From positions 1 to 32,115 of IMG/VR virus record IMGVR_UViG_3300034073_001631: DNA of 32,115 nucleotides. One strand, given 5' to 3'. Under the pieces are notes generated by a model. That model had not been told where the DNA came from and did not search any database. It saw only the letters and a program-made list of their open reading frames with translations. The translations under genes and the position numbers were made by a program. Positions 2,814 to 28,983 of this stretch are shown in pieces. This stretch comes from a virus. Numbering within the stretch: the stretch's first letter is position 1; every line of letters begins with the position of its first letter.

Positions 2814-3095
2814 TTATTCAACAAAGTATATTGTGTCTGTGTTATATGACCCGAGGCCATTATATTGTGCCAAAGTGCCTGACCATATAAAAGAAACTGA
2901 ATTTGGTGATGCAGTTGCTGAAACTATGCCACCAGTCGGTGTTGTGCCGGATGTACCACTAGTGCCACTAGTGCCGGCAGCACCTGTGGCCCCTGTGAAA
3001 AGACCAGTGTTTGCATCTGTTAATATCGAATTTATTGTGTTTCTAGCCGTTAGACCAGAATCACCGTTGTTAATTAAAGTATATGGTGTTGGCAT
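2814..3095 (-). CDS. Small collagen-like tail protein with GTSG repeats (93 aa)
   Basis: The N-terminal 35 residues include NNGDSGLTARNTINSILTDA, a pattern common in small fibre proteins. A Gly-X-X run follows (GATGAAGTSGTSGTSGT, about residues 35-52), and the protein ends in a short beta-rich tail (NGLGSYNTDTIYFVE). GTSG runs form collagen-like triple helices in phage fibres, and the same repeat occurs in the 408-aa protein at 20771-21997. The gene lies between a 68-aa ORF and the YRG-motif protein, all in one direction, just upstream of the main fibre gene. It is probably a short trimeric fibre or linker. Confidence 0.6.
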   Translation of the reverse strand: MPTPYTLINNGDSGLTARNTINSILTDANTGLFTGATGAAGTSGTSGTSGTTPTGGIVSATASPNSVSFIWSGTLAQYNGLGSYNTDTIYFVE

Positions 3096-9583: not shown

Positions 9584-12500
9584 CTAACCAAAGGTTGCAG
9601 ATCCTTCTAACACTCTAACTCGTTGTTGTGCGTTAGATATATCACTTTCTAAGACATATACTCTTTGACCAGACTGACCACTTTGACTAGTTGAAAAAGG
9701 TGTTGTTGAACCGGCAGATGAAACTGGTGAATTAGTGAAACTGGTGAAACCACCACCTAGACCACCTAACTGATTGCCAGTTGTTGTGCCGGTTGATAGA
9801 CCACCAGATGCAAATCCAGTGTCGGCAACAGCCGTCTGTGGAATTGAACCAGATGAATCAAATTTAGTCTTTTGAATTGCTGCAACCTGAATGCCAGTTG
9901 TTGTTGCAACTAATGCTGATAGAATTCCACCTATAATTGGCGCAACACCACTGGCAACTAATGCTGGATTTGAAAAGGGACCTAAGAAAGCCTGTAAGGC
10001 ACCCTGTGCGCCCGATATAATTGACTGGGCAATTCGATTTTTTTTGTCAGTTTCAAATGCCTTTTTCTTTATTTCTAATTCTTTTTTAGATAGATTTGTT
10101 GCCAAAGCCTCTGTGCTAGCGGCTCGATTTTTGTCTAATTTAAGAATTGCATCATTATATTGTTGCTCGGTTATTAGACCAGCCTCGGCTCTTTTTTTCA
10201 ACAATTCAACCTCTGTGTTAAAAGATGCCGTTAATTCATTTTGTCGATTTTCATTATAGAGTTTCAATTCAATTAATGAATTTTCATCCTCTGTCTGTCT
10301 TAGTTGTTGCAGACTTTGTGCAAAATTAAAGACTAAGTCAAATCCCTGTTGGATTTTTTTGGCAGCCTCGTCAGCCTTTTTTAATTTATATTCTAACAAT
10401 TCATCCTCTGACAACTTTTCGGCATCCTCTTTTAATTTTAGATATTTTCTAACAATGCCTGATTTTTTAGATTCAGCCTCCTCTGTTGCATTAACACTGG
10501 CTTGACTAAGTGCATTTGCTGATGCCAGTGCGCCGGCATTTATTCTGGCCTGACCATCAGAATTTAACTTTTGAATTTTATTGTCAGTTTCTAAATTGAT
10601 TTTGCCAATGGCCTCTAAATATTCAGTCTGATTTATTTTCTTTTGGTCTAATAAGACTTTTTGCTGTGCCAACTCGGTCTGTCTAGTTGAATTGGCAATT
10701 CTAATTTCAGCAGTTGTTTCGGCTGCCAGTGTGTCAATATTCAATTGTCTGATTCTTTCAATTTTTTCAGTTTCAGATATTTCTAATTTATTGATTTTGT
10801 CTAATTCAGCCTTGAAATCTTTTTGTCTTTGCAATTCAGCAAATCCGAATTGCTTTATTATGAATTCCTCGAAATTTACAATTCTTTTAACTCTTTCATT
10901 TTCAATGGTTTGCGTTTCAATTGTTTCTTTTTCTTTTAATAAATCTAATTCTTTTTTTAGATTTGCCTCTCTTTCATTTGATATATCACTGAATGATTTA
11001 ATTTTTTCACCTGTTGTTTGCAACAATAAAAATCTTTCAACAAAGTTAGTTTCTTTGGCTCTTTTAATTTGCTCTTTTGTGTCATCAATTTCGAATTGAA
11101 TTTCTTGCAATTTCAGAAGCCTTCTTTGGTCACTAGCATTTTGGTCACCAAATGCCGTTTCAGTCTGTAACACCTGATTTATGACACGCAGGTCATTTGC
11201 CTTTTTCAATTCAGCGGCAACTTCCTCGTTAATTAGATTTAGTCTTTTTTGCAAATAAAATCCGTCTAAGGCCAAAAGTGCCTCGTTGAATTCAGAATTT
11301 ATTTTATTTATTTTTTGTGATTTTTCTTTTTGACCTAACACCGATTTATTAATTTCATCAGTCTTAGATTTAACTAATTCAGCAATTCTTTCTTTTTCTT
11401 TCTTTTTTTCAAATTCTAATTCATCTAATTTAGTCTTTTGACCTAGCCTTTCTAAATCCTCTAAATATTTCTTTTCTATGTTGTTTGCCTCGGTTAGTGC
11501 CGATGAAATTGATTGCGTGATTTGTTGATAGGCCTGCTTATATTGTTGTTGTGCTGCCTCTAATTTTCTTTTTCGCTCCTCGGCTGCCTGATCTGCTTTT
11601 TGCTTTTCAACCTCGATTTCTTTCTCACGCTGCTCTGATAGTGTCTTTAATTGGTCATTATATGACTTTAATATTGCTGTCCTTTCATTTGCAATTTTAG
11701 TCAAAAGTGAATTTATATCATCTTTTGTCTTTTTCTTGTCAATATCAGATGCTTGATTTACATATTTCAATTGTGCTTTTAGTAACTCTTGATATGTGCC
11801 AGTTGTGATTTCAACCTGTGCCGTTAGTCTTTCAATTAAGGCAATTTTTTCAGCAGTTGTTAAATTCTTAGTGTTGTTTGCAGTTGCCTGATTTCTAAGT
11901 TTCTCTAACTTTTCTAATTGATTTATTTGATTTCTTTTAGATGATATTTCATCCTGACCTAATTTAGTCACGACCTGCACATATTGTACACCCTGACCGG
12001 CCAATTCATTATATTCGGCTCTAAGTGAAATTAATGAAAATTCATTTTTAAATTTATTTGCTTCTTTTAATATAGAATCAAAGACACCCTCTTGATTTCT
12101 TTGATATTCAACAATATCTTTTTCCTGTGCTTTTATGAAATCTCTATTTGCTGCGTCTAAGGCTGCATTTCTTTTATCAACATCTTTTATTTGTAAAGCA
12201 TTTAGTCTAGCCGTTTCAAAAGCCAATTGTGTTAAAGCCTGTGCTGCATTGTTAGATTGCTCGACCTGCTCTTTTTGTTTCTGAATTAATTCATCTGTTG
12301 TTTCAGTTGTCTTTTCAGTTTCACCGCCAAATAAGACTAACCCGGCAACAACGGCTGATAGGGCAACTGCAATTAACCCGAGTGGATTTGCCGCCAGTGC
12401 TGCCGTGAATGACCTGGTTGCCACGGTGGCCGATGTGGTGGCAACAACATCTGCTTCTGTTGCAACAACTTTTGCCTCGGTGGCCACAACATTTGCCTCG

Positions 12501-13324
12501 GTTACAACGGTGTTAAGATTTTCAGTTGTTGTCTGACCTGCCACAGCAGCAGTCTGTGCCTCTGTTGCCGCCAAATCAGCAGATCTAGCCGCAGTTAAAG
12601 ATGAAAATCCTGCTTTAATTTGTGTGATTTGGTCAGCCAGACCACCAAAGGCTGATATAGATTGCGTGATTAAAAGTAAGCCCTGTAACTTTTGAAATAT
12701 CTCTTGAACCTTTTCACTTTCACCACCAAAAAGACCAATGGCACCTGTTAGACCCTGTAAGCCAACAATGCCGACATTTGCAACACCAGATAGGGCGTTG
12801 CCTAGTCTTTCGGTTGTGTTTCCTGCTAATGATGTAACAACGGCATTTGTGTCTGATATAGTGTCACGCAATTCACCGGCTCTAACTGATAGTTGTTGAA
12901 ATCTAGCAGATCCTGGCTCTAATTGTTGTAACTCTTGAATCACCTGACGCAATTCTGCTTTTAGACTTTGTGATGAATTAGATGAATTTTTTATTTCATC
13001 AGAAACCTTTTTAACACCACCAGCCTGGTTTGATATTTTAGATGCCGCCTCTGCTGTCTGTGTGAAATTTTGACCTAAGGTCTTTGCGTCATTTGCAGTT
13101 TGCTTTATAGTGGTGTCAAATTTCTTAGTGTCATTATTTAGGGCACCTATCACTTTTGTTAAATTAGATGCCTGATTTTGCAAAGATTTGAATTCACGGC
13201 TGCCTTCGTCGATTTTGCCTAATTCAGCATTAGTTTCTGCCAGTGCAGTTTCTAACCCACCAATAGTTGTGATGGTCTGCTCGACCCCGTTGATTTTAAC
13301 ATTTAATTCAAAATTAGTAGCCAT
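9584..13324 (-). CDS. Tail tape measure protein (1246 aa)
   Basis: The largest coiled-coil protein of the genome. The N-terminus (FELNVKINGVEQTITTIGGLE) and helical Gln/Asn-rich repeats are typical. A hydrophobic segment at about residues 305-330 follows NPLGLI (IAVALSAVVAGLVLFGG). A very long charged coiled coil covers roughly residues 340-1100 (EKEIEVEKQKADQAAEERKR and similar). A Gly/Ala/Ser-rich C-terminus contains further hydrophobic stretches. The protein sets tail length and helps pass DNA through the host envelope; by the usual scaling a 1246-residue protein gives a tail of roughly 180-190 nm. It follows a homing nuclease gene that overlaps its start by 11 bp. It is far from the chaperone-like gene, which is unusual. 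Confidence 0.85.
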   Translation of the reverse strand: MATNFELNVKINGVEQTITTIGGLETALAETNAELGKIDEGSREFKSLQNQASNLTKVIGALNNDTKKFDTTIKQTANDAKTLGQNFTQTAEAASKISNQAGGVKKVSDEIKNSSNSSQSLKAELRQVIQELQQLEPGSARFQQLSVRAGELRDTISDTNAVVTSLAGNTTERLGNALSGVANVGIVGLQGLTGAIGLFGGESEKVQEIFQKLQGLLLITQSISAFGGLADQITQIKAGFSSLTAARSADLAATEAQTAAVAGQTTTENLNTVVTEANVVATEAKVVATEADVVATTSATVATRSFTAALAANPLGLIAVALSAVVAGLVLFGGETEKTTETTDELIQKQKEQVEQSNNAAQALTQLAFETARLNALQIKDVDKRNAALDAANRDFIKAQEKDIVEYQRNQEGVFDSILKEANKFKNEFSLISLRAEYNELAGQGVQYVQVVTKLGQDEISSKRNQINQLEKLEKLRNQATANNTKNLTTAEKIALIERLTAQVEITTGTYQELLKAQLKYVNQASDIDKKKTKDDINSLLTKIANERTAILKSYNDQLKTLSEQREKEIEVEKQKADQAAEERKRKLEAAQQQYKQAYQQITQSISSALTEANNIEKKYLEDLERLGQKTKLDELEFEKKKEKERIAELVKSKTDEINKSVLGQKEKSQKINKINSEFNEALLALDGFYLQKRLNLINEEVAAELKKANDLRVINQVLQTETAFGDQNASDQRRLLKLQEIQFEIDDTKEQIKRAKETNFVERFLLLQTTGEKIKSFSDISNEREANLKKELDLLKEKETIETQTIENERVKRIVNFEEFIIKQFGFAELQRQKDFKAELDKINKLEISETEKIERIRQLNIDTLAAETTAEIRIANSTRQTELAQQKVLLDQKKINQTEYLEAIGKINLETDNKIQKLNSDGQARINAGALASANALSQASVNATEEAESKKSGIVRKYLKLKEDAEKLSEDELLEYKLKKADEAAKKIQQGFDLVFNFAQSLQQLRQTEDENSLIELKLYNENRQNELTASFNTEVELLKKRAEAGLITEQQYNDAILKLDKNRAASTEALATNLSKKELEIKKKAFETDKKNRIAQSIISGAQGALQAFLGPFSNPALVASGVAPIIGGILSALVATTTGIQVAAIQKTKFDSSGSIPQTAVADTGFASGGLSTGTTTGNQLGGLGGGFTSFTNSPVSSAGSTTPFSTSQSGQSGQRVYVLESDISNAQQRVRVLEGSATFG
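12438..12500 (-). repeat. Three 21-bp tandem repeats inside tape measure gene
   Basis: Three adjacent 21-nt units (12438-12458, 12459-12479, 12480-12500) encode the 7-residue repeat VVATEAx, just before the hydrophobic segment. A degenerate partial unit extends on one side. The length is a multiple of three, so copy-number changes would keep the frame. Confidence 0.7.
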
Positions 13325-13775
13325 ATATTCTAGATTTTTTATTTCTGATTAGTGAAATCATTGCAGTTGAAACACCATATTTTTTTGATAATGAAACACC
13401 AGTTTCTTTGCTGTTTCTAATATTCAATATTGAATCATAATTTAATTTCATTTTTCTAAGACCTTTTGAATATGCGTGTTTCAAATTTTCAGATCTAGTG
13501 ACATATTCTAAATTTTCTAAAATATTGTTACTTTTGTTGCCATCTTTATGGTTAATATCCATCTCTGAATTTTGACCTAAAAATGCATCACCGACTAAAT
13601 TATGAATAAATTTAATTTTATATAAATTGGTTTGACCTAGTCTTATTCTAACAAATTTGTAACCGAATTTATTAGTCATCGCTTTTAGATATTTTTTTCT
13701 TTTCAAAGAATATACATTTCCGAAAATATCAATTTCATAATTAGTTGCAATTTCATCTATAAAAATTCTTTTCAT
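13314..13775 (-). CDS. HNH homing endonuclease with NUMOD4-like N-terminus (153 aa)
   Basis: Residues 12-32 (NYEIDIFGNVYSLKRKKYLK) match the NUMOD4-type DNA-binding module. Residues 58-100 form the HNH_3-type nuclease core (IHNLVGDAFLG, then DINHKDGNKSNNILENLEYV and TRSENLKHA). The C-terminus (SLSKKYGVSTAMISLIRNKKS) is a helix-turn-helix-like DNA-binding tail. This is a free-standing homing endonuclease that cuts alleles lacking it. It sits between a fibre gene and the tape measure and overlaps the tape-measure start by 11 bp, so it carries the start region of that gene in its own 3' end. It is Lys/Asn/Ile-rich compared with the structural genes, fitting transfer. Confidence 0.85.
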   Translation of the reverse strand: MKRIFIDEIATNYEIDIFGNVYSLKRKKYLKAMTNKFGYKFVRIRLGQTNLYKIKFIHNLVGDAFLGQNSEMDINHKDGNKSNNILENLEYVTRSENLKHAYSKGLRKMKLNYDSILNIRNSKETGVSLSKKYGVSTAMISLIRNKKSRIYGY

Positions 13776-20294: not shown

Positions 20295-20771
20295 TTATTT
20301 GCTTTTATTATATGATTCGATTTGCTTTGTCAAATAGTCATTATATGTCTTTGCAAATTCATCACCTAATTTTTCTAAGTTGGCCTCTATGGTGGATCTG
20401 AAAAATTTCTTTGGTTTTAGACCTGTAACAAATTGAATTTTATAGGCCACTGCATACGGGCTTTTTTCACCTAATTTCGACCAGGCTTTTATTGCCTCTG
20501 CTGTGCCAAAATATTTGCCCTTAAATTGAAAATCAGTTTCATATAATTTTTGACCGACTGGATTCACACCTCGATCCTGAAAATTGCCATAGTCTATAAT
20601 TGTGAAAGGGTTGTCACCATCAGCAGTTTCAGAAGGGTCAAATGCCACAGATGCTTTCATCTGACCTCTATCATTGATATTTAATTCATCAATTTTCTTT
20701 TTGATTGCCTCGACAACAGACTGGCCCCATTTCTTTTTTGCCTCGACTAAAAGAGTTTCTAATTCAGTCAT
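20295..20771 (-). CDS. Neck / tail-completion protein, HK97 gp10-like (158 aa)
   Basis: The helical N-terminus (LETLLVEAKKKWGQSVVEAI) and the core DNPFTIIDYGNFQDRGVNPVG, then PYAVAYKIQFVTGLKPKKFF resemble HK97 gp10-type head-tail joining proteins. In these, an xDYxxFxxxG segment is followed by a helix ending in a FFRSTIE-like block (visible here as KPKKFFRSTIEANLEKL). The length is usual for that family. Its ATG overlaps the stop of the upstream fibre gene by one base (TAATG), implying coupled translation. It would sit at the neck, between connector and tail tube. In most siphophages this gene is beside the portal and capsid; here it is among tail genes. Confidence 0.6.
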   Translation of the reverse strand: MTELETLLVEAKKKWGQSVVEAIKKKIDELNINDRGQMKASVAFDPSETADGDNPFTIIDYGNFQDRGVNPVGQKLYETDFQFKGKYFGTAEAIKAWSKLGEKSPYAVAYKIQFVTGLKPKKFFRSTIEANLEKLGDEFAKTYNDYLTKQIESYNKSK

Positions 20772-21997
20772 TAAATTGTTTCTAATTTATATGCAGACAT
20801 TTTGCCGCTCGGGATAGACTGACTGCCTTTTATTGTTAAATCAGATGCTGAATATAAAAAGATTTCAATTTTGTCTAAGGCATTTAGTTGTGCCTGCCAA
20901 CTGCCGTGAATTTCAAAATATGGCAAAGTGTCTGCACTACCGTGGTCTTGAACCGACCTGGCTGCAAACGCTATGCCAGTGCCAGACCAGGTGACACCAT
21001 TTTTCTTTAAGAAAAAGACTGCCTGATTATCTGAAACACTTTGATGACCTAATGAAACCATATAATGAAACTGATAGTAACCCGCTGTGCCAACTGAAAT
21101 CCATGACTGGGTTGCAGAGGCTGCTGAATTGAAACCCCATTGTGTTTCTATATTGTCTGTGAAATGCACAAAAGTTTCAGCACCGGCTGCTTTTGTCTGT
21201 GTCTTTTGTGACCAACCAGAAAAATATGCTGGTGAGAAAGATGTGCCACTTGTGCCTGATGTGCCGTCATTGCCGGTTGCACCAACAACACCACCTAATT
21301 CAAATGCTGATGCGTTGATATATTCATAAATCAAAGTTGTTGTGCCAGAAATTGTCTTTGCTAAAAGTGCAAACCAATATTGTGTGCCAACTGATAGTCC
21401 ATTTACTATAAAAGAAATTGACATTTCACCACCAAAAGAAATCATTCTTTCAGCAGTTGCGGTGCCAGTTGCTGCTGACCCATCAGCAGGTGCCGCACCT
21501 GTGCCATATCTTAATTCATAAATTAAATCAGTAGATGCTGATGATTGCAATTCATAATTGACATAGACAACACCAGTTGAAAGAGGTGTGAAATAAAATC
21601 CACCAGTCGCACCTATCATTTTGCCTGATGTACCAACAGAGGATATTGTTAAAGTCTGATATGAATTAGTTGAATTTTGCCAACTGATTTGACCAATTGG
21701 TGATGGTGATGTGCCTGATGTACCAGTCTGACCAGATGTGCCTGATGTGCCACTGGATCCAACACCTGATGTGCCTGATGTGCCATTTGTGCCTGATGTG
21801 CCACCACTAACAACACCCCAACTTAGACCACCTGCGCCATCTGTGACTAAACCCTGACCTGACGAGCCATAATTAGTTGGCAAATCAAAGTCTAATTGTG
21901 ATGAACCAGTGTAACCTAATGAAAGGTGTGTTGATGTTGAATTTGATATTTTTAACCGACCAGTGCCGTCAAATGAATTGTGTGAAATGCCAGACAT
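20771..21997 (-). CDS. Collagen-like tail fibre with C1q-like C-terminus (408 aa)
   Basis: The N-terminal domain (residues 1-60) contains DFDLPTNYGSSGQGLVTDGAG, GGLSW, a standard attachment module of tail fibres. A collagen-like run of about 35 residues follows (GTSGTNGTSGTSG type, about 65-97). The middle is a beta-sandwich domain, a second short GTSG run lies near residue 245, and the C-terminal 150 residues look like a C1q/TNF-type jelly roll (AGYYQFHYMVSLGH, FFLKKNGVTWSG). The protein should form trimers and bind the host surface. The repeats are visible in the DNA as imperfect tandem GCCTGATGT units around 21700-21810, prone to length change. Confidence 0.7.
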   Translation of the reverse strand: MSGISHNSFDGTGRLKISNSTSTHLSLGYTGSSQLDFDLPTNYGSSGQGLVTDGAGGLSWGVVSGGTSGTNGTSGTSGVGSSGTSGTSGQTGTSGTSPSPIGQISWQNSTNSYQTLTISSVGTSGKMIGATGGFYFTPLSTGVVYVNYELQSSASTDLIYELRYGTGAAPADGSAATGTATAERMISFGGEMSISFIVNGLSVGTQYWFALLAKTISGTTTLIYEYINASAFELGGVVGATGNDGTSGTSGTSFSPAYFSGWSQKTQTKAAGAETFVHFTDNIETQWGFNSAASATQSWISVGTAGYYQFHYMVSLGHQSVSDNQAVFFLKKNGVTWSGTGIAFAARSVQDHGSADTLPYFEIHGSWQAQLNALDKIEIFLYSASDLTIKGSQSIPSGKMSAYKLETI

Positions 21998-21999
21998 AT

Positions 22000-22488
22000 T
22001 TATATTTGGTTAGATTTTATTTGAAATGTATAGTCAGGGTCATCACAATCTGATGTCTGAAAATTAAAGACTATATTGACATCTAAGGTGACACCAGAAA
22101 CCTGGTCTAACCACCTATCAGAAAAAGGTGCAATTGTTGGCAAACCTGAAATATCAAATATATCAGATTTAGATTTTAGAAATCTAACTAGTCTGAATGC
22201 AATTTCCTCGCAATCAGATATAATTGAATTTTGATTTGATTTGCCAGTTGAATCATTAAAGACTAAATCATAAATTAAAATTTGATAGTTTCTGGTGATG
22301 GCATAGTCTGATAGAAAGTTAGTGCTCTGTGGATTCACCCACATCCCAGGATATATCTGATTTGCTTTTATTTCACCATTTTCACGCCATAATTCACCAA
22401 AGCCGAATTGATTTAGATTTGGATCTGCCGCTGCAAATTGTTGCATAATTTGCTCGAATCCAATTTGTGATAGAAATCCAATTGCCAT
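22000..22488 (-). CDS. Tail-completion / minor neck protein (162 aa)
   Basis: No firm family match. It begins AIGFLSQIGFEQIMQQFAAA. A mid-segment ITRNYQILIYDLVFND followed by IISDCEEIAFRLVRFLKS is an arrangement seen in tail-terminator or head-tail adaptor proteins (a strand pair followed by a helix). The C-terminus, VTLDVNIVFNFQTSDCDDPDY, is a beta hairpin. The position after the chaperone-like gene and before fibre and neck genes supports a tail-completion role. AAAAGACAT lies 8 nt before the ATG. Confidence 0.5.
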   Translation of the reverse strand: MAIGFLSQIGFEQIMQQFAAADPNLNQFGFGELWRENGEIKANQIYPGMWVNPQSTNFLSDYAITRNYQILIYDLVFNDSTGKSNQNSIISDCEEIAFRLVRFLKSKSDIFDISGLPTIAPFSDRWLDQVSGVTLDVNIVFNFQTSDCDDPDYTFQIKSNQI

Positions 22489-22523: not shown

Positions 22524-22796
22524 TTAACCACCTCTAACCACTCGGCGTGATGCCAGATATGATATATGATTTAAAAGTGAAATGACACCTAATTCATAAA
22601 GACTTTGAATTTTAATTGGGTCATCATCAACTAACTTTGACAACATATCATAAAGGCCAAATCTCTTTTGAAAGTTAATTAATTGCACCTCGTCAAAGTG
22701 ATGTGGGTCTAGACTATCCCCGCCCTCGTCAATTCCTGCATCATCACCTCTTTCAAATAGTCCGTCATATCTATCGACAATTGACCTGATAGAATG
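22524..22796 (-). CDS. Frame-shifted (-1) C-terminal extension of chaperone-like gene (90 codons)
   Basis: This 90-codon frame has no start codon of its own and continues from the T10 slippery site of the gene at 23296. If the ribosome slips back one base on the TTC codon at 22798-22796, it reads HSIRSIVDRYDGLFERG and on to TAA at 22526-22524, giving a 257-aa fusion instead of 195 aa. The extension has protein character: an acidic linker (FERGDDAGIDEGGDS), then helical NFQKRFGLYDMLSKLVDDDP and SLYELGVISLLNHISYLASR. Tail-assembly chaperones of many siphophages (lambda gpG/gpGT) are made by exactly this device. It also fills the otherwise empty gap before the next gene. Transcript slippage at T10 would give the same product. 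Confidence 0.65.
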   Translation of the reverse strand, partial: HSIRSIVDRYDGLFERGDDAGIDEGGDSLDPHHFDEVQLINFQKRFGLYDMLSKLVDDDPIKIQSLYELGVISLLNHISYLASRRVVRGG

Positions 22797-23296
22797 AAAA
22801 AAAAAAGTGTGGCACCAAAGACTTTTTCAATTGAAACTCTGTTTCTAAAAAATTCTGCACGCTTTTCAAATCCTTCACCTTTATGATTTTCGATTTTATA
22901 TTCAGTTTCAGATTTCTTTTCTATCACTGGTCTATAAATTAGTGCCAGAGTTCGATGCAGATTTTCAATTGGATCCTGTCTGAATTGCTCGGCATCAATA
23001 AAGACACCAGTTGATATAAAGTTAATATCTGGTTCGATGCCTAATTCAACACCATCATAGTCTATAAAAGTGCAAAAGTCATTTTGTGGATCTGATGTTA
23101 AAAATTGGAAATTAGTCTTTATAGTCTGCCAGTCTTTTAGTGTTAGGTTTCTAATATCATCCTGGTCGCAATCTAAGGCAATTGAAACCATTTGTATAAA
23201 TTTTGCAATTTCTGATTCAGTCTGAATTGAAATTAATTCTTGATATTGACCAACGGTGATGTCTGACCAGGTCATAATTTTATTTGTGTCTATCAT
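22709..23296 (-). CDS. Tail assembly chaperone-like protein, unshifted form (195 aa)
   Basis: Features: an N-terminal MTWSDITVGQYQELISIQTE helix; a middle DFCTFIDYDGVELGIEPDIN segment and VFIDAEQFRQDPIENLHRT; then LALIYRPVIEKK and a C-terminal VFGATLFFFILSGQLSID. Similar proteins in Bacteroidota phages are annotated as tail-assembly chaperones. A run of ten T (22806-22797) in the LFFF codons, with the heptamer T TTT TTC in frame, allows a -1 shift into a 90-codon extension. The unshifted form ends at 22709. Such proteins coat the tape measure during tail assembly. The gene lies directly after TerL and about 9 kb from the tape measure, which is odd for this function. Confidence 0.6.
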   Translation of the reverse strand: MIDTNKIMTWSDITVGQYQELISIQTESEIAKFIQMVSIALDCDQDDIRNLTLKDWQTIKTNFQFLTSDPQNDFCTFIDYDGVELGIEPDINFISTGVFIDAEQFRQDPIENLHRTLALIYRPVIEKKSETEYKIENHKGEGFEKRAEFFRNRVSIEKVFGATLFFFILSGQLSIDMTDYLKEVMMQELTRAGIV

Positions 23297-23316: not shown

Positions 23317-24498
23317 TTATAGGTCTAATATATCTATATCAAATGTATAATCATTTGATCTGGCGGTCTTTTGTATGTGTGACCACACTGCATATCTAAT
23401 GGCACAAAGTGCGTCATCAAAGAGTTTCACAGGTTGGTCTAATTTCATTTCACCACGCATCTGCCATTTATATTTTCTTAATTCAGTGATGATGTTAGTT
23501 GATTCATAGTGAATTGAAAAGTGAAAAGACTTTATTAAATCTATGCCTTCTTTAACCTCTTTCATTGCTGCCTTTGCATCAAATCCGGCTCGTCTAATTT
23601 CCTCTATGGTCTTAGGCTCTGCTGCATCACACCATATCACATCATCATCTGATATAATATTTAAATTTTTCATTTGACTAATTAAATCTGATGTTGTCAT
23701 AAAAGATTTGTATATGACCTCTTGACACCAGATGTGTCTTTTATTTCTGTTAATTATGACTTTAACTAACGCAGTCGGGTGATTAAATCCGAAATCGAGA
23801 CCCCATATAGTTTCATCATCTGAAAAATCGGATTTAGTTTCATAGGTTTGCCAGTGTGAATATACTAATTCATTATTCTTTGCCGGTAGACCTAAGCCAT
23901 ACATTTGCCACAGGTCATCGTCATATAATTTATAGGATTCAATTTGACTAACAACTGCTGATTCTAAAAATGGGTTGTCTTTATATGTTGAATGAATATA
24001 TTGGCAGTCATCACGCGTCTGATAGTCTAATGACCAGTGAAGGGCATTAGTTGGATTTTGACACATAATTATACGGCCAGTGGTACGCATAAAAATCTGC
24101 TCGGCTGCCTCTTTTTCGATTTCATTTATTTCATCAATAAAGACTATATCGTGTTTCAGACCACGCAATTTCACAGACTGGTCTAGGGATATAAATTGAA
24201 TTAAATTGCCACCAATAGAATATATGTGATTTGTCTTATTGTGGTTTCTTTCATCATAGATTTCATAGTCTTTTAACATCTGAATAAATTCTCTGTATGC
24301 ACCTTTTCTAAGACTGGGAAATGTCTTTCTGGCAATTGTTATAATTAGGCCAGTTTCTTTTAGTGCCTTTATTAAAATCCACTGCATTGCTGAATATGTC
24401 TTTGTGGATCTAGACCCGCCAACTGACAGGATGAAACGCCTATCTGTCTTTAACATAATATCTAAGACACGGCTGCCCTTTATTTGCAATTTATTCAT
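23317..24498 (-). CDS. terL: Terminase large subunit (393 aa)
   Basis: The DNA-packaging motor. The ATPase domain has a Walker A-type loop, VGGSRSTKT (residues 26-34), and a Walker B, DIVFIDEINE (residues 117-126, Asp122/Glu123). The nuclease domain begins with IWGLDFGFNH (Asp235), continues with VIWCDAAEP (Asp291) and ends at KLFDDALCAIRYA (Asp361/Asp362), matching the three-acid RNase H-like site of Terminase_3 (PBSX/SPP1-type). At 393 residues it is slightly short for the family but has all key residues. Its ATG overlaps the TerS stop by four bases (ATGA), indicating coupled translation. The preceding HNH gene suggests cos-type cutting. Confidence 0.92.
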   Translation of the reverse strand: MNKLQIKGSRVLDIMLKTDRRFILSVGGSRSTKTYSAMQWILIKALKETGLIITIARKTFPSLRKGAYREFIQMLKDYEIYDERNHNKTNHIYSIGGNLIQFISLDQSVKLRGLKHDIVFIDEINEIEKEAAEQIFMRTTGRIIMCQNPTNALHWSLDYQTRDDCQYIHSTYKDNPFLESAVVSQIESYKLYDDDLWQMYGLGLPAKNNELVYSHWQTYETKSDFSDDETIWGLDFGFNHPTALVKVIINRNKRHIWCQEVIYKSFMTTSDLISQMKNLNIISDDDVIWCDAAEPKTIEEIRRAGFDAKAAMKEVKEGIDLIKSFHFSIHYESTNIITELRKYKWQMRGEMKLDQPVKLFDDALCAIRYAVWSHIQKTARSNDYTFDIDILDL

Positions 24499-24860
24499 AT
24501 GTCATCTAAATTAAAATCATCACGGATGATTCTAACCTCGACCTCTGATATGCTTTGGCCTTTTGATGTGATGTCTAATGAATCTGTGTAACCTCTTTCT
24601 TTGGCTTTGAAACGCAAATAAAAATGAATTGACTTTTCTGATCCATTTTCAATTGCTTTGAATAATTTATTTTCAACAAAGTCTATCACGGTTTCATTTA
24701 TATCATCGACTTTTGATTTGAAATCTGGATCCTCTTTAACCCATTTGTGAAAAGTTTCACGAGCAATATTTGCTTCTTTGCAGGCGTGTGTGATGATGCC
24801 TCGGTGTCTTTCTAGGCACTCTAAGACTTTATTTTTTTTTATTATGGTGCTGTCACGCAT
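24495..24860 (-). CDS. terS: Terminase small subunit (121 aa)
   Basis: Recognises the packaging site and loads TerL. Residues 10-45 form a helix-turn-helix (VLECLERHRGIITHACKEAN, IARETFHKWVKEDPDF), typical of small terminases of the DUF1804/Terminase_2-like kind. A helical oligomerisation region follows (VDDINETVIDFVENKLFKAI, then EKSIHFYLRFKAKERG). The acidic C-terminus (IIRDDFNLDDI) would contact TerL. The gene overlaps TerL by four bases and follows the HNH gene. The gene-free region at 25343-25837 lies one gene upstream and is the expected place for a cos or pac site. A variant of the GACATA motif lies at 24886-24881. Confidence 0.85.
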   Translation of the reverse strand: MRDSTIIKKNKVLECLERHRGIITHACKEANIARETFHKWVKEDPDFKSKVDDINETVIDFVENKLFKAIENGSEKSIHFYLRFKAKERGYTDSLDITSKGQSISEVEVRIIRDDFNLDDI

Positions 24861-24907: not shown

Positions 24908-25342
24908 CTAATTTCTTTTTGACAACACCTTAGTTATGCGTTTCATAAATCCTTTATATTCACAAATTTTAATCTTTTTTTGTGTTTCATAAAAGTCTAA
25001 TGCTTCTTTTTCACTTTCAAATCCGAAATATTGACTTTTTATTTTAACAAAGAATTTATTTGATTCAATTCTGATCCATTTTCTTTTTTTAGGTTTGGCC
25101 TTTTTTTTCTTTTTAGGTTGTGTTTCTTTTCTTTTGTGGTGATTTTCATGACAAATTTTACACAACACCTCTAAATCAGATAATTTTTCGTTAAATATAT
25201 TTTCATAGGTTTTATGATGCACCTGAATATTAGTTATAGATTGACATCTTTCGCATACTTTGCCTCTTTCGGCAAACAATTGTTGTCTTTTCTTTTGCCA
25301 TTCATCACTTTGCAGATAGTCTTTATATTTTTGATTCATCAT
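24908..25342 (-). CDS. HNH endonuclease of packaging module (144 aa)
   Basis: Carries a complete HNH motif: Cys30-Glu-Arg-Cys33, His42-His43 (IQVHHKTYENIFNEKLSDLE), Cys61-Lys-Ile-Cys64 and His68-His69. The four cysteines bind structural zinc. The N-terminus (KYKDYLQSDEWQKKRQQLFA) is the usual lead-in. A Lys-rich linker (ETQPKKKKKAKPKKRK) follows, then a short basic C-terminal domain. HNH proteins next to TerS and TerL in HK97-type phages act with the terminase in cos cleavage, so that role is likely here. The promoter just upstream places the transcription start almost on the first ATG (25342 or 25339), so the message may be leaderless. Confidence 0.85.
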   Translation of the reverse strand: MMNQKYKDYLQSDEWQKKRQQLFAERGKVCERCQSITNIQVHHKTYENIFNEKLSDLEVLCKICHENHHKRKETQPKKKKKAKPKKRKWIRIESNKFFVKIKSQYFGFESEKEALDFYETQKKIKICEYKGFMKRITKVLSKRN

Positions 25343-27919: not shown

Positions 27920-27946
27920 AGGTCACCAGTTAGGTGGCCTTTTTTT
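27920..27946 (+). terminator. Rho-independent terminator of methyltransferase gene
   Basis: AGGTCACC pairs with GGTGGCCT (8 bp, one G-U on the plus strand) across the loop AGTTA, followed by seven T. It overlaps the stop codon of the convergent GIY-YIG gene. The G-U pair becomes a mismatch on the minus strand, so it works best for plus-strand transcripts. Confidence 0.85.
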
Positions 27947-28277
27947 ATACATCAGAAATCCTCGGCACTTTTTGCCACAGGTCACCATTTAGAAAATGGT
28001 CATTTAGAATCAACAGACATTCCCACCTTTTTGCCTCGACTTTGTCTGTGAATTGTCGATTTTCAGTTAGAGTTATAGATTTGATGTGTGGATATTCAAC
28101 TCTAATTTTATTATAGAGGTCTTTTTTATAGTCAGTCTTAAAGCAAAGTCTGTTGTGTTGCTTTTGTCTTAGTGGCAGATTTTTTGTATATCCGACATAT
28201 CTAACAACACCATCTATCCAAATTTCATAGACTGAATAAATTTCTTTATTTTTATATTTTTTTTGTGGCATATTCAC
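27945..28277 (-). CDS. GIY-YIG nuclease, short form (110 aa)
   Basis: The nuclease signature appears as YSVYEIW (residues 14-20) and RYVGYTKNL (26-34), followed by the Arg/His helix PLRQKQHNRL (Arg37, His41) and a downstream Glu in DKVEAKRWECLLI (Glu81). The domain is nearly the whole protein, with no separate DNA-binding module, so it may be a minimal nuclease or a Slx1-like domain protein. It overlaps the 78-aa gene by 26 bp and converges on the methyltransferase. The first Met could also be Met3. The presence of two GIY-YIG genes within 1.1 kb suggests homing activity here. Confidence 0.75.
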   Translation of the reverse strand: MNMPQKKYKNKEIYSVYEIWIDGVVRYVGYTKNLPLRQKQHNRLCFKTDYKKDLYNKIRVEYPHIKSITLTENRQFTDKVEAKRWECLLILNDHFLNGDLWQKVPRISDV

Positions 28278-28491: not shown

Positions 28492-28983
28492 TTATTTATT
28501 TAATTTTTGTTTGATGAACCTTTTATTATGATCAACAAATCCATTTTTATGCCGATTTTTTGCTGCACATGAGTAACAGAATTGCGAATCTCTGTAAATT
28601 TCAACGCCGCAGTGGCAAAAGTTGATTTTATATTTTTTTTCTTGCCAATTAGGATTTTTTTCATCAGATATATCTCTGCCTGATGCCTTTTTTTCGATAT
28701 TCAAAATATTTTCAGACCAATATTTTTTCAAATAATTTGTTTCAATTTTTTTCAATTCTTTTGACGACAAGCCAACCGTTTCTTTTAATATCTGTACCTC
28801 TAAATCATGCCAATTGCAATTATAATTTATAGTTTTATAATATTTTGTACCTGGGTTAAAATAAGTCTTATGTTGCCTAAATCTGCCATATAAATCTATA
28901 CTAGATCCTATGTAGAATTTGCCATCAGGTTGTGTTATTAAATAGACACCCTGTTTATTTTTGAAATCAGTTGGAATTATCAT
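28492..28983 (-). CDS. GIY-YIG homing endonuclease with zinc finger tail (163 aa)
   Basis: GIY-YIG core: QGVYLITQ (GVY at 12-14), KFYIGSSIDLYGRFRQHKT (YIG at 24-26, Arg34) and a catalytic Glu in LKKIETNYLKKYW (Glu81). Residues 105-115 (ISDEKNPNWQ) resemble the start of a NUMOD3 DNA-binding motif. A zinc-finger-like tail follows (CHCG at 123-126, CYSC at 136-139). This is the layout of free-standing phage homing endonucleases of the Seg type. Its ATG overlaps the stop of the membrane-protein gene by four bases. Its Lys/Asn/Ile content is high compared with the structural genes. Confidence 0.85.
   Translation of the reverse strand: MIIPTDFKNKQGVYLITQPDGKFYIGSSIDLYGRFRQHKTYFNPGTKYYKTINYNCNWHDLEVQILKETVGLSSKELKKIETNYLKKYWSENILNIEKKASGRDISDEKNPNWQEKKYKINFCHCGVEIYRDSQFCYSCAAKNRHKNGFVDHNKRFIKQKLNK

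Follow-up and report, generated by a model that had tools for sequence, protein, structure and literature searches.

A conserved T9/T10 run in a two-frame gene, putatively encoding a tail assembly chaperone, of phages with probable Bacteroidota hosts

Introduction

Tail assembly chaperones made in two lengths are a textbook use of ribosomal frameshifting. In phage lambda, gpG and gpGT have a common N-terminus and the long form arises by a -1 shift (PMC5009743). In P2 and its relatives (gpE/E+E', PF10109 Phage_TAC_7, phrog_103/166), a short N-terminal form and a -1 fusion are made at a T run lying near the end of the zero frame; the P2-like sites are T6-G (or TTTTTTC, GGGAAAG), the gene adjoins that of the tape measure protein, and T7G and T7C sites have been reported in xanthomonad relatives (PMC3931495). 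Two products from one gene can also result from transcriptional realignment, as described for Shigella mxiE (Tn), Thermus thermophilus dnaX (A9), IS elements (A9/T9) and Citrobacter rodentium tssM (A11), all with a homopolymer of at least nine at the shift point (PMC1088944, PMC3711429, PMC4256274). Selection against slippage in many bacterial genomes appears at nine A or T (PMC1088944), and Tn with n > 8 has been cited for transcriptional realignment (PMC3711429). Chaperone recoding and homopolymer slippage are each known; our literature search, which covered few subscription papers, found no case combining them, and no priority is claimed.

The gene described here lies in the 32,115-nucleotide record IMGVR_UViG_3300034073_001631, hereafter the window. 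It resembles lambda G-GT in its architecture, gene order and slippery site both being different. The locus follows the P2 pattern, with a short form, a -1 fusion and a T run close to the zero-frame end, and one member of the present family matches phrog_166 as P2 gpE does; however, the run is T9 or T10, the gene adjoins the terminase, and there is no direct profile homology. With the cases of transcriptional realignment it has in common a long homopolymer at the shift point and two predicted products, whereas no phage tail chaperone was among the examples found.

The gene and its two reading frames

The features of the locus are collected in Table 1. The reverse complement around the run reads directly as ...GGTGCCACAC-TTTTTTTTTT-CATTCTATC..., with the zero-frame codons CTT TTT TTT TTC ATT. 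The short form would end in the zero frame 28 codons past the run, and a shift to the -1 frame, which opens only shortly 5' of the run and ends at a TAA (22524-22526), would give a full fusion of 257 aa. The sequence-only reading had described ten T at 22806-22797 with T_TTT_TTC in frame, a -1 frame open for 90 codons beyond them to 22524, and a gap of 220 bp filled by that frame; the run is indeed read on the minus strand, the open frame is seen in the translation, and the distance from the zero-frame stop to the next gene (22488) is 220 bp.

Table 1. Features of the recoded locus and its module in the window
Feature	Position	Strand	Basis or remark
Terminase large subunit (PF04466), upstream neighbour of the recoded gene	23317..24498	-	
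Zero-frame ORF, 195 aa: short form (G-like), putative tail assembly chaperone	22709..23296	-	homologues with T run in 12 lineages
T10 slippery run	22797..22806	-	holds in-frame T_TTT_TTT and T_TTT_TTC
-1 frame extension, 90 codons and stop: acidic linker, helical domain	22524..22796	-	selection on the -1 frame in homologues
162-aa gene (MSIGYLSQNG...), directly downstream	22000..22488	-	position; conserved neighbour in close relatives
Neck/tail-completion protein, same module	20295..20771	-	phrog_29822; weakly phrog_5
Tape measure protein, expected chaperone partner	9584..13324	-	phrog_3336, E 5.6e-12

The product of the directly downstream gene has no family match and is a probable tail completion or terminator protein. 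In the lineages inspected the terminase is followed by the recoded gene, and in several of them this is followed by a gene of 150-235 aa and a neck-like protein, then by the large tail genes. A Bacteroidota host is suggested by the similarity of the terminase to those of Bacteroides and Flavobacterium phages and by the Nonlabens phages discussed below. Elsewhere in the window, four ORFs (13314-13775, 24908-25342, 27945-28277, 28492-28983) resemble HNH or GIY-YIG endonucleases by eye, with one just upstream of the tape measure gene, and collagen-like GTSGTSGTSG repeats occur in two structural-region proteins (20771-21997, 2814-3095). The ORF at 35-607 recurs from 31962 to the end of the window (32115); the ends of the record probably overlap, which would make the genome circular or terminally redundant and about 31.9 kb long, and no exact end repeat of 101-400 bases was found in the window.

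Conservation of the run and of the -1 frame

A profile scan of viral contigs returned 73 loci. Once identical proteins had been dropped and the homologues found earlier included, 61 loci (window included) keep both the run and the conserved -1 domain. These fall into 12 lineages with less than about 50% identity (clusters at 50% identity, single linkage). The sequence L061 stops short of the site and is uninformative, L007 was left out since its match is of 16 residues, and L002 is the same virus as the window. Six close relatives (L003, L004, L006, L008, L018, L020), 36-46% identical to the window's short form, all carry T9 at an unchanged codon phase, and their -1 extensions can be aligned over the full length. 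Searches of other kinds were negative: the 195-aa protein of the window had no tblastn match in phage records, two scans of genome contigs returned no relative, and a terminase scan of viral contigs returned the window's own virus alone; no comparable T-run chaperone candidate emerged from six phages of Bacteroides, Flavobacterium, Parabacteroides and Riemerella whose terminases are related.

Among the 61 loci the run is T9 in 54 and T10 in 7, never shorter and never longer; no T6-T8, T11 or other heptamer was found in any locus with a separate -1 frame. It lies in codon phase 1 in 45 loci and in phase 2 in 16, the flanking bases vary on both sides, and T9/T10 is kept even in contigs of 57% GC (range of the loci 0.29-0.57). 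Since the domain and the T9/T10 run are kept wherever a homologue has a separate -1 frame, this frame is not a chance opening. Internal T10 and T9 runs were also noticed in other genes of two relatives (L018:4399-5616 and L097:3180-3728), as possible further slippage sites.

The family extends to the cultured Nonlabens phages P12024S and P12024L, which were reached through a relative of the window used as query (about 26% identity) and not through the window's own protein. Their site is CATAC-T9-ATC, and the extension carries the same aromatic motif. In P12024S (Inhavirus; phrog_32199) the genes gp38 and gp39 match the present locus in homology, in the T9 run and in the conserved -1 extension, but are only about 26% identical and are annotated as two hypothetical genes. 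They are very probably one recoded gene (L012:11995-12689), and a two-frame reading would correct the annotation of both phages.

That annotation embodies the first alternative, namely an independent downstream gene for the extension, translated from a start codon of its own. GenBank lists gp38 and gp39 as two genes, and a 54-aa ORF with a GTG start is present in the window. Nevertheless, the conserved residues begin right at the run, whereas the first start codon of the -1 frame lies 118-250 nt beyond it; P12024S is the exception, since a TTG stands 8 nt ahead of the run and an ATG follows 85 nt after the run start. In the window the -1 frame offers its first possible start codon (ATG, GTG or TTG) 118 nt beyond the run start, so the conserved first part of the extension is not a separately started gene. 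A separate gene is also at odds with the five loci of four lineages (L060, L077, L081/L089, L143) in which both domains lie in one ORF of 235-260 aa without a T run. These natural fusions indicate that the fusion is a real protein state, and a separate gene seems very improbable. In the alignment, made without L143, they continue across the junction with EYTKFR-like residues where FFF stands in the other homologues; the run is therefore not kept for its amino acids.

The second alternative is that a sequencing error in the homopolymer, or a frameshift mutation, has split a single ORF. A homopolymer of ten is error-prone and some lineages do carry the domains in frame; yet the same -1 offset is found in all 61 loci, two isolate genomes included, and it recurs at two run lengths (9 and 10) and in two codon phases. 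Change in close pairs, moreover, is about twice as rapid in the zero-frame tails as in the -1 frame. Over the two-frame stretch of 166 close pairs, amino-acid differences number 1216 for the zero frame, against 553 for the -1 frame and 1387 for the +1 frame, and the nucleotide changes by -1 codon position (1/2/3) are 437/204/1087; these pairs are not independent, and the signal persists in most of the 18 non-overlapping pairs listed. In the overlap of the frames, constraint acts on the -1 frame. A broken ORF is scarcely credible: for the family, its repeated occurrence in isolate genomes and in independent contigs already refutes it. By this comparative evidence the recoding at T10 is real and not an assembly error, because the arrangement is also present in P12024S/L and in dozens of other contigs. 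The proposal of the sequence-only reading that a programmed -1 shift gives the long form of a tail assembly chaperone thus gains support from the homologues it had suggested comparing, in which T run and -1 frame are both kept.

Polymerase slippage or ribosomal frameshifting

The ribosome and the polymerase read the same sequence, so that it is patterns alone that can discriminate between them. Several points favour a programmed -1 shift by the ribosome on T_TTT_TTT/TTC, the mechanism of lambda G-GT and P2 E-E': a perfect in-frame heptamer of the X_XXY_YYZ type (T_TTT_TTT) is present in every homologue with the run, P2 itself uses T_TTT_TTG, and the chaperone cases found in the literature are all described as ribosomal (PMC5009743, PMC10885494). 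A purely ribosomal shift leaves unexplained why T6-T8 and other heptamers are absent here, since P2-like sites use them. Among 11 diverse P2-like E/E' sites, taken as a control for ribosomal shifting as established for P2, nine are T6-G, one is T6-C and one GGGAAAG, none exceeding T6; by comparison, the homopolymer of at least eight to nine at the shift point that characterizes slippage is found at all 61 loci as T9 or T10.

No conserved stimulator of the ribosomal shift, either a downstream structure or an upstream SD sequence, was found. Pseudoknot-free RNA folding around the run of eight sequences, all from outside the distant lineages, gave nothing consistent downstream or upstream, the z-scores scattering around zero with only L004 below -2. 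The ribosomes of Bacteroidia do not engage in SD pairing (PMC9976891), and a stimulator of the SD type would be removed if the host belongs to the Bacteroidia.

Runs of A9 or longer are rare in the genes of these phages. In eight sampled phage genomes one A9+ run was observed in genes against 14.3 expected, and eight of the nine T9+ runs are this site. The window itself has one A9 run in a selected gene, at codon 6 of a small gene (24495-24860, minus strand) upstream of the terminase, which is at odds with the general avoidance of A9.

Two further patterns provide modest evidence. The free Phe wobble position is TTT in 15 of 15 sampled lineages, where a ribosomal heptamer would permit TTC (product of the TTT fractions 0.015 across the 15 lineages; 0.36 in the GC-rich lineage). 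In 23 of 23 sequences no more than 11 codons are open in the +1 frame, to which only slips of another size would lead (P 0.0004 for the maximum and 0.009 for the mean against a resampled background), a test that was chosen after the lengths had been seen and is weaker than its P values. This early closure, too, is not accounted for by a ribosomal shift. As counterpoints to slippage, every T9 includes a perfect T_TTT_TTT heptamer on which a ribosome could shift as well, and the run length follows in part from the Phe and Leu codons of the two frames.

On these comparative patterns, programmed transcriptional slippage is the most likely source of the -1 shift, and polymerase slippage is favoured over ribosomal frameshifting, with RNA polymerase as the presumed agent; a ribosomal shift is possible but rather unlikely, and the two mechanisms could act together. 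The transcript slippage that the sequence-only reading had named as the less usual of two mechanisms turns out to be the better fit. RNA polymerase would stutter on T10 and add one U, or drop two, in a fraction of transcripts, and standard ribosomes would read the altered transcripts on into the -1 extension, with a presumed ratio of short to long products. This slippage model assumes that Bacteroidota RNA polymerase may slip on T9.

Nature of the protein

A tail assembly chaperone is the best reading of the protein, which we consider likely from synteny, architecture and weak profile links rather than from strong homology. The tail protein family phrog_166 is matched by the short form of L043 with E 7.3e-5 and by P2 gpE with E 4e-7, over overlapping profile positions (50-101 and 14-97, respectively). 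Two members match PF10109 at 16-18 bits, against a curated cut-off of 25. Comparison by hhalign with 11 P2-like E sequences gave a probability of 1% and no homology, profile alignment to P2 E and E' was likewise unsuccessful, and Pfam, NCBIfam and the PDB provided no firm match. AlphaFold models were weak for the short form (pLDDT 68) and poor for the extension (pLDDT 53); Foldseek of the short form retrieved mostly unnamed relatives from uncultured phages, P12024S gp38 among them, with weak chaperone matches, and nothing useful from the PDB.

Two products with a common N-terminus, the long one by -1 recoding, are predicted from conservation and selection, as expected of a chaperone. However, the gene is not directly upstream of that of the tape measure protein, which in the window lies about 9 kb downstream, a gap that makes the locus unlike lambda or P2. 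This gene order, adjoining the terminase and far from the tape measure gene, together with the lack of matches over curated cut-offs, would suit a two-form recoded protein with another role, such as a packaging or neck factor. We regard such a role as unlikely, given the phrog_166 matches of L043 and P2 gpE, the sub-threshold PF10109 matches, a two-domain -1 fusion architecture typical of chaperones and the position of the neck and tail genes after the gene. The favoured identification is that of a two-form tail assembly chaperone of a siphovirus, probably with a Bacteroidota host. If lambda gpG/gpGT is taken as the model, coating of the tape measure protein would fall to the short form and recruitment of the tail tube protein to the extension.

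Concluding remarks

It appears fairly probable that these loci represent a widespread, unnamed chaperone family of (probably) Bacteroidota phages, in which the long form is made by RNA-polymerase slippage on T9/T10 and which has become a permanent fusion in some lineages. For annotators, a T9 or T10 near the end of the gene after the terminase would offer a simple rule. The fused lineages pose the question of whether one form is enough or whether the short form is made otherwise. If the polymerase decides while the two-domain logic is kept, this would show that selection acts on the product ratio and not on the machine that sets it; and for hosts among the Bacteroidia, if that is what they are, slippage would be a rational solution, since SD sequences are ignored by their ribosomes.
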